A stretch of 64,000 nucleotides of DNA, taken from Candidatus Nitrotoga arctica. Its GTDB lineage: Bacteria > Pseudomonadota > Gammaproteobacteria > Burkholderiales > Gallionellaceae. The stretch spans positions 1,798,001-1,862,000 of the forward strand of contig NZ_OU912926.1 in NCBI RefSeq assembly GCF_918378365.1, in the 5' to 3' direction. Under the pieces are notes generated by a model. That model was not told the DNA's origin. It made no database searches and saw only the letters and a program-made list of their open reading frames with translations. Positions 2,178 through 29,098 of this stretch are shown here, in pieces. Each line of letters opens with the position of its first letter. Position 1 is the first letter of the stretch. The position numbers were made by a program, and so were the translations under genes.

Positions 2178-3803
2178 TTATTGTATTGATTTAATCGTTT
2201 CTTCAAGTATCTGCGCGCCTAGTTGTGCCTGTGCCTCACGCACAAATGGGTCTTGCATAATGGCCTCAACTGCGTGCTGCTGACGTGTCTGTTTTACACG
2301 TTGCTCGACTGCGGCTGGCGTTGCCACGTTGTTCACACCTAACGTAACCGACAATCGCACTGACTGAACGAAATAGTCGGCAAGAGCAGTCTGCAATTTT
2401 TCCTGAGCCATTTTATTGGTCAACAAATGTTTGTGCTGCGGCGCTAAAATTAAAGTTAACCGCCCCTCAATAAAACTTTCCAACGTGCAATGCTTCGCCA
2501 ATTCGCGCGCCATACCTTGCACATTCAGTTGTGCCAATAATGTGCTCCAATCAAGCGCCACCGAAGTAATTTCTACCGGATTGACTGGTGGGGAAATAGT
2601 CTGAATAGGTTGCGGTTGAAGTTGCTGCTTCGGTTTTGGCACAAGTGTCTCGGTAGCGTGAACTGTCGGCGGCGCAGTGACTTCAGCTGTGCGCTGTTCC
2701 AACATTGCCTTAGTGCCAGCTGGCCTAAATGCCAACATGCGCAACAAGGTCATGGTAAAACCAGCATACTCATCAGGCGCAAGGTCAATTTCATTACGCC
2801 CGTGTATGGCAATCTGATAATACAACTGGATTTCCTCCGCGCTAAAAATCTGCGCCAGTTCTAGTAAGCGCGTTCGCTCCGGCTCATCTTCTGCGATGGC
2901 TTGCGGCACCGTCTGTGCCAAAGCAACATGGTGCAACAGAGTCGCCAAGTCTTGCAAGGCAACATCAAATGCCAAACTGCGACTTTGCATATCGTCAGCA
3001 ATACGCAGTAAACCAACTCCGTCCCGCGCTAGCAACGTTTGCAACACGTCATACAGATAACTTTGGTCAATCGCGCCTAACATATTACGGACCGTCGCCT
3101 CATCGATTCTGGAATCGGAATAGGCAATGGCTTGATCGAGCAAGCTTAACGCATCGCGCATACTGCCCTGCGCCGCACGGGCCAGCAATGACAGCGCAGC
3201 GATTTCAAACGTGATGTCTTCCTGCCCCAGCACATACTCCAAGTGTGTGACGATTAGTGCGGGCGGCAATTGTTTCAGATTAAACTGCAAACAGCGCGAC
3301 AGCACAGTGACGGGGATTTTTTGCGGGTCAGTTGTGGCAAGAATAAATTTGACGTGTGCGGGCGGCTCTTCCAATGTCTTCAACATCGAGTTAAACGCTG
3401 CCTTGGAAAGCATATGTACTTCATCAATCAGATAAACTTTGTAGCGTCCCAATGTGGGCAGATATTGCGCGTTATCCAGTACTTCGCGCATATTATCAAT
3501 CCCGGTATTAGACGCTGCATCCAATTCAATGAGATCAACAAAACGTCCACTGTCGATTTCCGTGCACGCGCTGCAAATTCCACACGGTGTGGCGGTAACG
3601 CCGTTGATACAATTCAAGGATTTTGCAAAAATGCGGGCGATGGTGGTTTTTCCCACGCCGCGCGTACCAGTAAACAAATAGGCGTGATGTAAACGGTTTT
3701 GTGTCAGCGCATTGCTTAATGCCTGCACAACATGCTTCTGCCCCGCCAATTGCGCGAAGATCTTAGGTCGCCATTTGCGCGCTAGAACAGAAGTTACTGA
3801 CAA
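2178..3803 (-). CDS. dnaX: DNA polymerase III subunit tau/gamma
   Basis: DnaX (541 aa) is the clamp-loader ATPase and the organiser of the replicative holoenzyme. The AAA+ module shows Walker A (GTRGVGKTTIARIFAKSLNC, about residues 46-65), a zinc-binding cluster (CINGVTATPCGICSAC), Walker B (VYLIDEVHML) and sensor region (ATTDPQKIPVTVLSRC). A Pro/Gln-rich linker (about 380-410) leads to a tau-type C-terminal domain (from about 415). I did not find an obvious slippery A-tract for making gamma, so only the tau form can be asserted. First gene of the dnaX-ybaB-recR-rluB run, with the SRP RNA a short way upstream. Confidence 0.97.
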   Translation of the reverse strand: MSVTSVLARKWRPKIFAQLAGQKHVVQALSNALTQNRLHHAYLFTGTRGVGKTTIARIFAKSLNCINGVTATPCGICSACTEIDSGRFVDLIELDAASNTGIDNMREVLDNAQYLPTLGRYKVYLIDEVHMLSKAAFNSMLKTLEEPPAHVKFILATTDPQKIPVTVLSRCLQFNLKQLPPALIVTHLEYVLGQEDITFEIAALSLLARAAQGSMRDALSLLDQAIAYSDSRIDEATVRNMLGAIDQSYLYDVLQTLLARDGVGLLRIADDMQSRSLAFDVALQDLATLLHHVALAQTVPQAIAEDEPERTRLLELAQIFSAEEIQLYYQIAIHGRNEIDLAPDEYAGFTMTLLRMLAFRPAGTKAMLEQRTAEVTAPPTVHATETLVPKPKQQLQPQPIQTISPPVNPVEITSVALDWSTLLAQLNVQGMARELAKHCTLESFIEGRLTLILAPQHKHLLTNKMAQEKLQTALADYFVQSVRLSVTLGVNNVATPAAVEQRVKQTRQQHAVEAIMQDPFVREAQAQLGAQILEETIKSIQ

Positions 3804-3816
3804 AATTTACGTTGTC

Positions 3817-4347
3817 TCAAAAATGGTAGGCAAGGCGAATTTGGCTAAAATTGATGCCTGGATTTGGGTGCTTAATTGAACCATTAGATAGATGCTGGAA
3901 ACGATAGCCCAGATCGAACTGCTTCCGATCACCGAAACGCAGGCCTGCGCCGAGATGATCACCGAATTGAAAAGCGGTACTAAATCTACGGTCGGCATTG
4001 ATATGAATATCGGAAATCAGATGAACTCCGATCCCTGCTTCCAGATAGGGCGCTAAGCCGGAAAGATTTTTCTGTTGCAAACGAAATACCGGAGTAAAAC
4101 CGATATCCGTAATGTTGTGATTACTGCCCGCACTGTTTTGGCCGTTCCAACGTCCCGCTGAAGCTTCCCAATAGCCAGTCACCAACCAGTTGCCCTCGGT
4201 AAACCACTTCTTTTGCCAATCCCATTGGGCGCCGATACGCGCCATATTGGTTTTATCGCCACTTCCAATCTCAGCGGAAACACCATCTATGGCCCACACA
4301 TTCCCATTTAACAATAGCGCACCGATCAGTACACAGATTTTTTTCAT
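3817..4347 (-). CDS. pagL: PagL-type lipid A 3-O-deacylase
   Basis: A 176-residue outer-membrane beta-barrel enzyme of the PagL family, which removes the 3-O-acyl chain of lipid A. A signal peptide (MKKICVLIGALLLNGNVWA) precedes eight-strand barrel-like sequence. Near the C-terminus RFQHLSNGSIKHPNPGINF matches the family's active-site region with the His and Ser of the catalytic set; the third, acidic residue is not obvious because Asn follows PNPGI. The last residue is Phe, as usual for barrel proteins. I chose the ATG at 4347, which has GGAG 7 bp upstream; the longer frame to 4392 would run into the SRP RNA gene. Confidence 0.8.
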   Translation of the reverse strand: MKKICVLIGALLLNGNVWAIDGVSAEIGSGDKTNMARIGAQWDWQKKWFTEGNWLVTGYWEASAGRWNGQNSAGSNHNITDIGFTPVFRLQQKNLSGLAPYLEAGIGVHLISDIHINADRRFSTAFQFGDHLGAGLRFGDRKQFDLGYRFQHLSNGSIKHPNPGINFSQIRLAYHF

Positions 4348-4374
4348 TGTCACTCCAACTTCGAATAAGGAGGC

Positions 4375-4467
4375 GAGCCTTGCCCCCGGCACTTGCAGTA
4401 AATGGTTATGGCTGCTTCCTTCCGGATCTGACCAGGTTCACCACCTTGCAATGCGGGGAGGCCCGCC
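4375..4467 (-). ncRNA. ffs: Signal recognition particle RNA (4.5S type)
   Basis: Read on the minus strand the segment contains the invariant SRP domain IV core CAGATCCGGAAGGAAGCAGC, closed by GGTGAACCTGGT on the 5' side. The outer arms pair (GGGCCTCCCCGCATTGCA with TGCAAGTGCCGGGGGCAAGG), giving the single long hairpin of the roughly 95-nt bacterial SRP RNA that binds Ffh. Its position just upstream of pagL and dnaX is a known arrangement in proteobacteria. Ends are set from stem pairing and may be off by several bases. Confidence 0.93.
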
Positions 4468-4712
4468 AATTCTTTCAAGCTATCCAACAGCCTGCTGCGC
4501 AATACCAAGAGACCGTAACTAAGCCACTAAAAATACTAATGTATTTGTATATAATGCGCATTCAGGTTTCATTCTTAATGCGTTTTGCCCTGGCGATACT
4601 TTCTACGGCTATTGAACCACTTATATCTTATTATAATACTATCAAATGAATCGGCTGGCAAAATCCAGCCTTGTACAATGTGGTATGAACCCGAACGAGA
4701 GCTGTATTCCTA

Positions 4713-5723
4713 CTAGCGTTTCTCGTGATGTCCACCGAATTCATAGCGCAAGGCGGACAATAATTTATTGCCATAATCTGCTTCTCCACGCGAATTAAAG
4801 CGATCAAATAATGCGGCGGTGAGAACCGGCGCGGGTGTACCCGATTCGATAGCGGCGATGCTGGTCCAGCGTCCTTCGCCGGAATCCGACACCTTGCCGC
4901 CGAACCCTTCCAGGTTGGGATCGGCTTGCAACGCGTGCGCGGTCAAATCCAGTAACCAGGAACTCACCACGCTGCCGCGCCGCCACAATTCAGCCACTTC
5001 AGCCACGTCGATATCGTAGCGGAAAGCTTCCGGCTCGCGTAATGGGGTAGTCTCCGCATCCACCCCGTGTGACATGTTACCCACATTGGCATGACGCAGC
5101 AGATTGAAACCTTCGGCAAAGGCGGCCATCATGCCGTATTCAATACCATTGTGAACCATCTTGACGAAGTGCCCGGCTCCCTCAGGGCCGCAGTGCAAAT
5201 AGCCGATCTCGGCCGTGCTCGGCTGGCCGCTGCGTCCTTCGGTGCGCGGCGTGGTTCCCACACCCGGCGCCAGTGCGGCAAAGATGGGTTGCAAGCGCGC
5301 AACCGTGTGCTGCTGGGCACCGATCATCAGGCAATAGCCGCGCTCCAGCCCCCAAGTCCCACCGCTGACTCCCACATCCGCATAATGGATGGACTGCGCT
5401 GACAGACTCTTTGCGCGGACGATGTCGTCTTTATAATAGGAATTACCGCCGTCAATGATGATGTCGTCCGCACTCAGCAACGGGGTCAGTTCCGCGATGC
5501 TGGCGTCCACCACCGCCGCGGGCAACATTAGCCAAATGGCGCGCGGTGCACTCAATTTATTCACAAACTCCTGCACGCTGGCAGCAGGTGTCATGCCTTC
5601 TTTTGCCAGTGCCTGCACCGCTTCGCTGCTGCGATCGAACACTACACATTGATGTCCGGCGCGCTGCAAACGACGCACCATGTTTGCACCCATACGTCCC
5701 AACCCTATCATTCCGATCTGCAT
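4713..5723 (-). CDS. gnd: 6-phosphogluconate dehydrogenase, short form
   Basis: This 336-residue enzyme oxidatively decarboxylates 6-phosphogluconate to ribulose 5-phosphate. The N-terminal Rossmann motif MIGLGRMGANMVRRL is typical, followed by DGGNSYYKDD, the substrate-binding GVSGGTWGLERGY and the catalytic HFVKMVHNGIEYG with the active Lys and His. The length (about 300-340 aa rather than 470) places it in the GndA/YqeC-like short class, often NAD-preferring; the cofactor choice is not settled here. It follows glk and zwf on the same strand, forming an oxidative pentose phosphate group; the lactonase gene pgl is 48 kb away. Confidence 0.93.
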   Translation of the reverse strand: MQIGMIGLGRMGANMVRRLQRAGHQCVVFDRSSEAVQALAKEGMTPAASVQEFVNKLSAPRAIWLMLPAAVVDASIAELTPLLSADDIIIDGGNSYYKDDIVRAKSLSAQSIHYADVGVSGGTWGLERGYCLMIGAQQHTVARLQPIFAALAPGVGTTPRTEGRSGQPSTAEIGYLHCGPEGAGHFVKMVHNGIEYGMMAAFAEGFNLLRHANVGNMSHGVDAETTPLREPEAFRYDIDVAEVAELWRRGSVVSSWLLDLTAHALQADPNLEGFGGKVSDSGEGRWTSIAAIESGTPAPVLTAALFDRFNSRGEADYGNKLLSALRYEFGGHHEKR

Positions 5724-5832: not shown

Positions 5833-6840
5833 TCAAACTATCTTTTCAGCATGATGTGCAGCGAATAAGGCCGGACCATACAATGCCGCGCGATCATTCA
5901 GAATCACCTTGACCGGCATCGCCGTCAGTAATGGTCGCATTCGCCCTTTATCAAGAAAGGCATTGAGGAAATCACCTGTCTGCAACAGCGGTAATATTTT
6001 CGGCGCGATGCCACCACCAATATAGAGACCGCCCCGGCTCATGACCTTGAGTGCCAGATTGCCGGCTTCCGCGCCATACAAGCTGACGAATAATTGCATC
6101 GTCTCCAGGCATATTGTATCGCTGCCTGCCAGTGCCGCAGCGGAAATAGCCGCCGCTGTATCTGCGTTACGCATCTCTTCCGCTAGCCACGCCGGGGTTG
6201 ATACATGCCGGTAGTCAAGCAAGAATGCATACAGATCTAGCAGCCCCATGCCGGAAACGACACGCTCCCAACTGACATGTCCCCTCATGTGCTCAGAATG
6301 GCGTTGTTGTAAATGTCTTAGTAAGGCAAATTCCAAGGTATTGCGCGGACTGAACGTAGCGTGTCCGCCTTCCGTAGCGAAGGGGCAATGGGATTGTCCG
6401 TCCCAATATAAACCCGCCTCGCCTAAACCCGTCCCGGCAGCGATCACCGCCACATTACCCAGCGCTTCGGGCGACCCCGCTTGCAGCGTCAATAAATCAG
6501 CATCACCTAGCGCGGGCAAACCATAAGCTGTGGCCTCTAAATCATTCAGCAGATGACAGCGCAAAAAACCGAAGCGTTGGCGCAGCGCGGCGGCATCGAT
6601 CCGCCACGGCAAATTAGTCGCTTGCGCCACGCCACTCTGCACCTGCCCGGCAATGCCAAAAGTCGCATCGTCAACGTGATTACCCGCTGACAAAAACTCA
6701 CTCAGCAACGTTTCAAAAGTGTCATAACGCTGGCTGGCATAACTAAGTTCGTGGAGGATCACAACGTCACTACCGTTCACGTCGACTAACGCCAAACGGG
6801 TCTTGGTACCGCCGATATCACCGGTAAGGATAGGTCCCAT
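5833..6840 (-). CDS. glk: Glucokinase
   Basis: Glucokinase of the ROK-unrelated bacterial Glk family (335 aa), phosphorylating glucose to glucose 6-phosphate. The start MGPILTGDIGGTKTRLALVDV carries the phosphate-1 ATP loop; LPWRIDAAALRQRFGF and HLLNDLEATAYGL contain the glucose-binding Asn-Asp, and VIAAGTGLGEAGL the second phosphate loop. EGGHATFSPRN holds the conserved Glu/His. I chose ATG at 6840, which begins 1 bp after the zwf stop and is preceded by a GAGG inside zwf; an in-frame ATG at 6864 would overlap zwf and precedes the domain. Confidence 0.94.
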   Translation of the reverse strand: MGPILTGDIGGTKTRLALVDVNGSDVVILHELSYASQRYDTFETLLSEFLSAGNHVDDATFGIAGQVQSGVAQATNLPWRIDAAALRQRFGFLRCHLLNDLEATAYGLPALGDADLLTLQAGSPEALGNVAVIAAGTGLGEAGLYWDGQSHCPFATEGGHATFSPRNTLEFALLRHLQQRHSEHMRGHVSWERVVSGMGLLDLYAFLLDYRHVSTPAWLAEEMRNADTAAAISAAALAGSDTICLETMQLFVSLYGAEAGNLALKVMSRGGLYIGGGIAPKILPLLQTGDFLNAFLDKGRMRPLLTAMPVKVILNDRAALYGPALFAAHHAEKIV

Positions 6841-27287: not shown

Positions 27288-27371
27288 TGCAAGCAATGAC
27301 TATGAGGGAGCCATTCTTGCCTTAAGAGTAGCACCAACCTTAAATACTTAAACTTTAGATGCTTTTATTTT

Positions 27372-27405
27372 AAAGAAAAAAGGGTGGCGTCGTCTTTTTT
27401 CCTTT
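27372..27405. terminator. Bidirectional terminator
   Basis: An A-rich arm (AAAGAAAAAAG) and a T-rich arm (CTTTTTTCCTTT) can pair around an 11-base loop, with one mismatch or bulge. The hairpin lies between the convergent ends of the OYE gene and the DGQHR gene. T-rich tracts on both strands fit a shared intrinsic terminator, though the stem is A-T dominated and weak. Confidence 0.45.
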
Positions 27406-27408
27406 ATT

Positions 27409-28851
27409 TTACGCACCTTTCTTATGCCGAATCGGAAGGTCAAGTCGCCAGCGAATCATATCGCCAATGATTGGATATATGTCATTGTGCTTGGCACCAA
27501 AGCGCATGAACCCACCTTGAAATTTACCAATGTCGCGATTAACAGTAATGTCATTCTCTGGCAAATAAAGCGCCAAATCTTCAAAATCGCCACCTTTACG
27601 CTGCTCCTCAGTCATATCAAAATACTGCCACATTGGATTCTGATGCGAAAAATCGACTTCTGTAATGCCATCAAAAATTTGATTGAGGATCACGTCACCA
27701 TTGTCAGGCCTTCGATTACTGAATGCAAAATCATACACAAGCTTCGCGAGAGCTTTAAGAACAACTGGCTGAGCGGCCACGGTCTTTTCACGAGCCTGGG
27801 GCTCTCCGAATCCTGAAATGGCTGTAACGGCTTCCCAAAATCGATAAGCAACCTCTACCTTTGGAGTCACCTCGGGGGGAATTGCGCTTGCAATATTGGT
27901 CTTATTAAGGAATAAGATTGCGTTTACAGCCACCAAATCTTTGCGCGTTACACTCCCGTCATCTGTATGCCAATCAGACTGGTCACGTTCTTGCACTTTG
28001 ACGCCTAGATTGTTGATGATTCGATCCTTGATAAACAGATTTACAGGATTAGAGTTATCGAAACTTAGTGCAATGCTGGTCTCGACTTTCTTACTGAGTC
28101 GATTCAAATCGTGAAAAAGCTGACGCTCTTGATCAATATCAAGCCCGAGATGTACCTCAACCACTATAGTGCAAAAAGTGCGCGCAACCACGAAGCATTC
28201 TTCCCACAACGCCATTTCGTCAGGACTGATTTCTTGAGATGGAGATTGAAATAGGCTGCCCTTTTTGGGATAAGCTCCCTTGGATCTCAGCTCGTCTAGA
28301 AACTGGAATACCATTTCCATTCCCTTTCTACGATGCTGCCCATCAACCACCCATAAAACATGCTTTTGCGAAAGAAAAATTTTAAAAGCGGCGGTCTCAT
28401 GGTCGGTTGTAATCAACCGAATACCTCGAAGGTTCTCACCGCTAGGGCTACACTCTCTGACATTCACAACAAGTGGCTGCAAAGAAAGATATGGTTGTTT
28501 TCCAAGGTTTGTTTGTACTTCAATGAATTTATCGGGAATTGTTTTTTTCTCAATTCCGCGTCGAGTAATCGTAGCCGTCACTAACCCTTTCAATATGTAC
28601 AAAGCCAATTTTTGAGCGTGAGTAATATCAAGTTTACGTTGAGAAATGGCTTCACCATCCCTAATTGGATCATTAGCCACCTCAGACATTTCAAAGAATT
28701 CATGCATGGGGACATGCATTACAAATGTTCTAAAACCGAGGTTGTGCCCAATAAATACTTTCATTGGCTTGTCTGCAGTCCCCCCTTCGTCTATTAAATT
28801 ATCAAGCGATGTTAAAGGCGAAGGTGTTCCTTGAGCATTTGCTGGGTACAT
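27409..28851 (-). CDS. DGQHR-domain protein, DndB-like
   Basis: A 480-residue protein with the DGQHR motif (VVDGQHRRKGMEM, about residues 168-180) that defines the DndB/DpdB-related family, and the second family block HDLNRLSKKVETSIALSFD. DndB regulates DNA phosphorothioation genes, and DpdB belongs to the deazaguanine DNA modification system. No dndA, C, D, E or dpd partners are within the window, so it appears as an orphan. Its own promoter region contains an array of CCWGG sites, suggesting it binds DNA and autoregulates. AGGAG lies 6 bp before the ATG. The gene is AT-rich compared with its neighbours, suggesting transfer. Confidence 0.85.
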   Translation of the reverse strand: MYPANAQGTPSPLTSLDNLIDEGGTADKPMKVFIGHNLGFRTFVMHVPMHEFFEMSEVANDPIRDGEAISQRKLDITHAQKLALYILKGLVTATITRRGIEKKTIPDKFIEVQTNLGKQPYLSLQPLVVNVRECSPSGENLRGIRLITTDHETAAFKIFLSQKHVLWVVDGQHRRKGMEMVFQFLDELRSKGAYPKKGSLFQSPSQEISPDEMALWEECFVVARTFCTIVVEVHLGLDIDQERQLFHDLNRLSKKVETSIALSFDNSNPVNLFIKDRIINNLGVKVQERDQSDWHTDDGSVTRKDLVAVNAILFLNKTNIASAIPPEVTPKVEVAYRFWEAVTAISGFGEPQAREKTVAAQPVVLKALAKLVYDFAFSNRRPDNGDVILNQIFDGITEVDFSHQNPMWQYFDMTEEQRKGGDFEDLALYLPENDITVNRDIGKFQGGFMRFGAKHNDIYPIIGDMIRWRLDLPIRHKKGA

Positions 28852-28860
28852 TTTATATCT

Positions 28861-28955
28861 CCTGGGTTGTTTATGTTAAATTCCAGGGACAACTATAATT
28901 ATAGTCCTGGTTAAAGTCAATATTATTTCCAGGATATATTTAATAATATTCCAGG
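28861..28955 (-). promoter_or_regulatory. Promoter with five phased CCWGG sites
   Basis: In AT-rich DNA before the DGQHR gene, CCWGG occurs five times: 28861 (CCTGG), 28883 (CCAGG), 28906 (CCTGG), 28929 (CCAGG) and 28951 (CCAGG), at steps of 22, 23, 23 and 22 bp, about two helical turns. A sigma-70 promoter reads toward the gene: -35 TTGACT (28915-28920), 17-bp spacer, -10 TATAGT (28892-28897). The 28906 site lies in the spacer, and the first site overlaps the ribosome-binding AGGAG. Sites 28883 and 28906 form an inverted pair around TATAATTATA. This geometry suits cooperative repression; the binding protein is inferred to be the gene product. Confidence 0.75.
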
Positions 28956-29098
28956 GATATCATTAATCAGAAATTATAAATAAATTTCTATGGGGTTACG
29001 TAAAGGCGCTCTCTTTTATCTATCGGAGAGATAGAGCATGGAGTGCTATAACCTTTTTAATCAATCCACAGCTCGTTACCTGAATTCACCTACAAAAG

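Follow-up and report, generated by a model that had tools for sequence, protein, structure and literature searches.

A phased CCWGG array upstream of an orphan DndB-like gene of Candidatus Nitrotoga arctica, a probable operator

Why should one five-base word recur five times, every second helical turn, in front of a single gene? The question is raised by a 64,000-nucleotide stretch of the Candidatus Nitrotoga arctica genome (contig NZ_OU912926.1, positions 1,798,001 to 1,862,000; hereafter the window), in which five CCWGG sites with steps of 22-23 bp span the predicted promoter of an orphan gene for a 480-aa protein of family PF14072 (DndB). Comparison with related loci suggests that the array is very probably a cooperative operator of the adjacent DndB-like protein, most likely serving auto-repression. 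An initial annotation made from the letters alone had placed all five sites exactly; the feature is real, and most probably its main point was read correctly there. The gene, the predicted promoter and the sites are as follows.

27409..28851, minus strand: orphan DndB-like (DGQHR) gene, 480 aa, PF14072 E = 2.1e-30
28861..28865, no strand: CCTGG site, gene-proximal, −14 from the ATG, overlapping the ribosome-binding-like AGGAG
28883..28887, no strand: CCAGG site, −36 from the ATG
28892..28920, minus strand: predicted sigma-70-type promoter TTGACT-17-TATAGT of the dndB-like gene, consensus match only
28906..28910, no strand: CCTGG site, −59, within the predicted −35/−10 spacer
28929..28933, no strand: CCAGG site, −82 from the ATG
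28951..28955, no strand: CCAGG site, gene-distal, −104

The CCWGG array and its conservation

The window as a whole has 113 CCWGG sites against 99 ± 9.4 in shuffles, so that the word is neither strongly enriched nor depleted and the cluster is local. Against the five sites found in the 200 nt before the gene (31% GC), dinucleotide shuffles gave 0.20 on average and at most three (n = 4000). A three-site sequence profile run against the host genome up to E 10 found no second array: three matches were obtained, all at this array, with 150 of 640 candidates scored.

Relatives of the gene were found in three sources. Two genes 77% identical to it lie on contigs of metagenome-assembled genomes (MAGs; L002 and L003, from the genome-contig scan); plasmid records gave seven matches, of which five were fetched and two, H6 and H7, are partial and were not; and IMG/VR gave three further close relatives (L017, L018 and L019). 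The final viral scan returned the same three, and the initial viral scan, with a single protein as query, returned no match. Samples of 61, 369, 398 and 399 genomes, partly overlapping and including the own genome, held no full-length relative besides the gene itself and one weak partial match (G554, E 2.4e-4). L008, a near copy of L006 whose gene is broken in the annotation, was left out, and the resulting set of 10 loci comprises the window and nine distinct relatives at 47-77% identity. In L008 (4995-6420, plasmid pPC02) the dndB-like gene is annotated in several pieces; it is whole on the sister plasmid pPC01, and the 260 nt upstream are identical.

The CCWGG sites upstream of the nine relatives, relative to the start codon, are as follows.

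MAG contig L002: −82, −60, −38, −15
MAG contig L003: −80, −57, −35, −13
Paracoccus plasmid: −100, −68, −25
Paenibacillus plasmid: −127, −96
Peribacillus plasmid: −151, −128, −97, −75
Polymorphobacter plasmid (L009): −96, −74, −52 (plus a lone −176)
IMG/VR contig L017: −110, −87, −65, −43, −21
IMG/VR contig L018: −121, −99, −77, −45
IMG/VR contig L019: −96, −74, −31

The initial annotation had set beforehand, as its own test, a comparison of the regions upstream of orthologues; outside the Pseudomonas phages considered below, phased CCWGG is present in all nine distinct relatives. All 10 loci carry exact sites, two to five per array, within 200 nt upstream of the gene, the hosts and carriers being Proteobacteria and Bacillota plasmids, MAG and IMG/VR contigs. 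Steps within the arrays are only 22/23, 31/32 or 43 bp, that is, two, three or four helical turns. The lone −176 site of L009 and a −251 site of L005 were left out of the motif table as non-array; the start of L005 was taken as ATG 1914 (RefSeq start 1935) and that of L018 as ATG 5998 (an in-frame ATG is also found at 5962).

When a phased step is counted as 21-23, 31-33 or 42-44 bp, the 10 loci sum to 27 steps, whereas 6000 shuffled rounds averaged 0.03 and never exceeded two. We therefore reject a chance origin, on these counts as on those from the 200-nt upstream region, and the earlier judgement that the spacing is not accidental holds. Among 96 palindromic cores tested over the same loci, CCWGG with its 27 steps was followed by a runner-up with two. 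No CCSGG was found inside an array among the one-mismatch words of the 10 loci; thus the central A/T is truly required.

The word, more than its surroundings, is kept between the window, L002 and L003. Nine comparisons of their linkers gave 4-11 identical positions of 17-18 (mean 7.9), with 6.8 ± 1.9 expected by chance; the central base varies, and CC and GG are kept at all four gene-proximal places. The site at −14 has counterparts at −15 in L002 and −13 in L003, and at −103, near the distal site of the window, L002 has the one-mismatch word CTTGG. The sequence flanking the sites is AT-rich, and its A/T preference is weak.

A scan of viral contigs for the array pattern gave 84 stretches, mostly tandem-repeat-like among the matches listed, and one true array was recognised (L119, on the same contig as L017). 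In three others, L081, L114 and L096, CCWGG recurs at intervals of about 22 bp within degenerate, AT-rich repeats, probably diverged tandem repeats.

The predicted promoter, the DndB-like protein and the extent of the array

The initial annotation had one site within the −35/−10 spacer and another on the ribosome-binding site. Both placements agree with the predicted elements, of which the promoter is a prediction only, because the region has two promoter-like sites and shuffled sequence 1.2 ± 1.4. When promoters are scored by an approximate sigma-70 matrix, a CCWGG falls in the spacer of the best one in eight of the 10 loci, the promoters of L005 and L009 being low-scoring. By simple arithmetic, a spacer positioned at random in an array of 22-bp steps would include a complete site in about six cases out of ten; the overlap of array and promoter is therefore the firmer point. 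In the eight loci this overlap is consistent with repression. In the two Bacillota loci the predicted promoter lies just downstream of the array, which is thus upstream of the predicted −35, and activation is also possible there. Conserved sites at the gene's own predicted promoter, or upstream of it in the Bacillota pair, are what an autoregulatory operator would be expected to have.

The protein scored 106.4 bits against PF14072, well above the gathering cut-off of 29.1, and fell below those of the DndB equivalog TIGR03233 (24.3 against 328 bits) and of the DGQHR domain TIGR03187 (51.7 against 58.85 bits); the letters DGQHR stand at residues 170-174. The restriction proteins SspE and BrxU/GmrSD also bear a DGQHR-type motif; the window protein differs from them in having PF14072 as its sole Pfam family and no nuclease domain. 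Residues ~38-258 were modelled like ParB/SspE-type domains, whereas residues ~260-480 are not placed. The predicted N-terminal domain resembles ParB, Noc and KorB in its arrangement, KorB being titled a transcriptional repressor in PDB entries and in a published reference; unlike those proteins, the family has no sequence match to solved chains (profile search, E<=1), and Foldseek gave no match under E 0.001. The protein is probably ParB-fold, as judged from the model.

The gene is not linked to dndC, dndD or dndE, its neighbours coding for a flavin oxidoreductase and a MocR-type regulator. A search of the host genome for DndC (TIGR03183), the one of the three that was sought, gave no match, with a weak control (the cut-off was passed in none of 14 genomes). 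Genes for stand-alone DndB-like proteins carry the annotation 'DNA sulfur modification protein', although no modification genes were found beside the window gene. The array gives its clade a definable and easily tested DNA target, and suggests that the clade acts at DNA by itself.

The nearest known system is that of Salmonella enterica, in which DndB (DptB), likewise a DGQHR-motif protein, binds palindromes within the promoter of the dndBCDE operon, to which its own gene belongs (PMC4507180, accessible parts). There, two TACGN10CGTA palindromes and linked dndCDE genes are found; here, two to five CCWGG sites at 22-23, 31-32 or 43 bp and no dndC match. With up to one mismatch allowed, TACGN10CGTA has no match between 24994 and 30239, and an operator of the Salmonella type was rejected for this locus. 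Wording on repression, autoregulation or negative control does not occur in the accessible parts of PMC4507180; a second article (PMC12345140), as far as its accessible part goes, treats phage antagonism of Dnd and has no bearing on the array. No description of a phased CCWGG array of this type was found in titles and abstracts of the open-licence literature, a search that may miss others. We regard the array as a new type of operator, made of phased 5-bp palindromes, for a known kind of regulator.

The array is confined to one clade of the family, with moderate support: in a tree of 24 proteins it needs one change, at a branch with support of 83/78, and the outgroups are very long. Beyond that clade, none of seven Pseudomonas phage relatives at ~48-50% identity (fetched from 21 records) has a CCWGG in the 260 nt upstream, nor has any of the eight IMG/VR relatives read from L027-L036 (six phage-like, two with 35% identity); the array is also missing from all three remote relatives read of six (loci L023-L025, L033 and L034 were not read). 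PF14072 is present in 16 of 369 genomes of a class-wide sample, and each of the 14 other PF14072 genes located (all but L133 and L136) has at most one CCWGG in the 200 nt upstream, measured from the first possible start codon per frame. These absences weigh against, or limit, the earlier proposal of a cooperative operator read by the DGQHR protein; the nine relatives bear it out, with binding inferred.

The phage genes (L010-L016 and L027-L032, Pseudomonas phages, several labelled Otagovirus) code for DndB-like proteins of ~485 aa and lack CCWGG in their upstream regions. Visual inspection shows, ahead of most of them, a promoter-like TTGAC stretch and another resembling CTAGGAG. A shared alternative palindrome in this group was rejected, the best candidate, TTSAA, giving two phased steps over 11 loci.

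Proposed function of the array

For the binder, its dimeric state, its cooperativity, the repression and the role of nucleoside triphosphate (NTP), we infer the following. Dimers of the DndB-like protein would each recognise one palindromic CCWGG. As the sites lie two, and elsewhere three or four, whole turns apart, the dimers would line up along the same side of the helix and could bind cooperatively. Such cooperativity would give a 5-bp word the specificity to mark a single promoter among the several thousand CCWGG that the genome, from the density in the window, should hold. A filled array would cover the promoter and the transcript start and so repress the gene (negative autoregulation), and the affinity probably depends on whether NTP is bound to the ParB-like domain. 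The locus would offer a clean system for studying the readout of a 5-bp word, through helical phasing, by what is probably a ParB-fold NTPase.

The resemblance of the predicted domain to ParB, Noc and KorB would also fit a parS-like loading or partition site, on which the protein loads and spreads as an NTP-dependent clamp, with promoter control secondary; several homologues are indeed on plasmids, one of them ~3 kb from a ParA gene. We consider this very unlikely. In every one of the 10 loci the array falls within the 200 nt before the gene, and the host genome yielded no second one; the neighbours scanned in L002, L003 and the window include no ParA-type family, and the annotation of the 5.8-kb Paracoccus plasmid lists none either. 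That a host factor with a CCWGG-type site binds the array instead of the DndB-like protein is highly improbable: gene and array occur together in Bacillota, in Proteobacteria and on IMG/VR contigs, the other PF14072 genes located have no array before them, and the profile, within its sensitivity, detected none in the rest of the host genome. A chance origin, or decay from a tandem repeat, has a negligible share: most 4-site CCWGG patterns in viral contigs do look like tandem repeats, among the matches listed, but the window linkers contain no more repetition than a single 23-nt pair (74%), and the phasing is common to independent loci. The tandem repeat was accordingly rejected.

CCWGG, here repeated in helical phase at a promoter, is the target of the Dcm methylase and of the EcoRII methylase and restriction enzyme, and the initial annotation had suggested that binding might read cytosine methylation. 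The corresponding alternative, an epigenetic switch in which the DndB-like or another protein reads the Dcm-type methylation state of the sites and so sets expression, draws on this shared 5-bp word and on the Polymorphobacter plasmid, where a C5-cytosine methylase and a vsr gene lie ~2-4 kb downstream of the dndB-like gene. That methylase, however, reached 26.7 of the 710 bits of the PRK10458 DNA cytosine methylase subfamily cut-off. In the host of the window, no match to PF00145, the C5-cytosine methylase family, was found by a search that was positive in 10 of 14 control genomes; the sole PF01555 methylase matches mainly adenine-methyltransferase models, below their cut-offs; and CCWGG depletion is not seen in the window. 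The C5-methylation reading is thus rejected for this host, where on present evidence the array does not appear to be a Dcm switch, and we hold an epigenetic switch to be quite unlikely overall. The host might still encode an N4-type CCWGG methylase, the one PF01555 gene being the candidate, and methylation sensitivity may exist in other hosts.

Linked genes and mobility

In single cases the genes behind the array point towards defence. On the Polymorphobacter plasmid NZ_CP080244.1 (L009:4995-8222), the array, the dndB-like gene, a Cap15 effector gene and a CD-NTase gene follow one another head to tail, with a 10-nt gap between the dndB-like and Cap15 genes and one overlap; the arrangement looks like an operon of a cyclic-oligonucleotide-based anti-phage signalling system (CBASS) led by a DndB-like gene. 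Further relatives of Cap15 occur in 70 plasmid records. In L017, an open reading frame (ORF) of 612 aa (3278-5116) starts 62 nt after the dndB-like gene. It has no Pfam or NCBIfam match itself. Of the candidates scored, at least 887 are homologues at E<=0.001, with PF02518, PF13589 or the name ATP-binding protein; judged by these, it probably encodes a GHKL-type ATPase. Contigs of equal length (for example 5026, 5364, 5420 and 8875) occur both in a list of 1715 DndB homologues and in that of the ATPase, a hint of linkage that is near the chance level and was left out of account. Both cases suggest a link of the clade to defence.

A further and rather unlikely idea is that the clade consists of mobile, NTP-switched ParB-fold sensors measuring cellular CCWGG, with the array as a defence trigger. 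Occupancy of the array would then be held by cooperativity alone, and incoming or fast-replicating DNA rich in CCWGG, perhaps unmodified, would titrate the protein off the phased operator, releasing the gene and any cargo behind it. The Cap15 and CD-NTase cyclase genes of Polymorphobacter and the GHKL-type ATPase gene of L017 would in that event mean a defence trigger and not simple homeostasis.

The dndB-like gene, together with its array, occupies a segment that is absent at the same place in two relatives of the host.

27291..29089, no strand: segment with the dndB-like gene and the array, missing from the corresponding position in G007 and G006, two relatives

In both relatives homology ends on either side of ~27291-29089, with ~5.5 kb of other DNA there, and the gene was found in none of 60 other near genomes searched. 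Its homologues lie on a 5.8-kb plasmid (Paracoccus), on larger plasmids and on viral contigs, with differing neighbours. From these comparisons we conclude that the gene is mobile, and gene and array together form a signature for tracing it and, in single cases, the defence genes behind it. The variable spot sits between the oxidoreductase and MocR genes. The replacement DNA of G007 (L150) holds a FecR/LysM gene and a CHASE2-GGDEF-EAL gene; that of G006 (L151) holds a FecR/LysM gene and an unscanned ORF of the same length as the CHASE2-GGDEF-EAL gene of G007.
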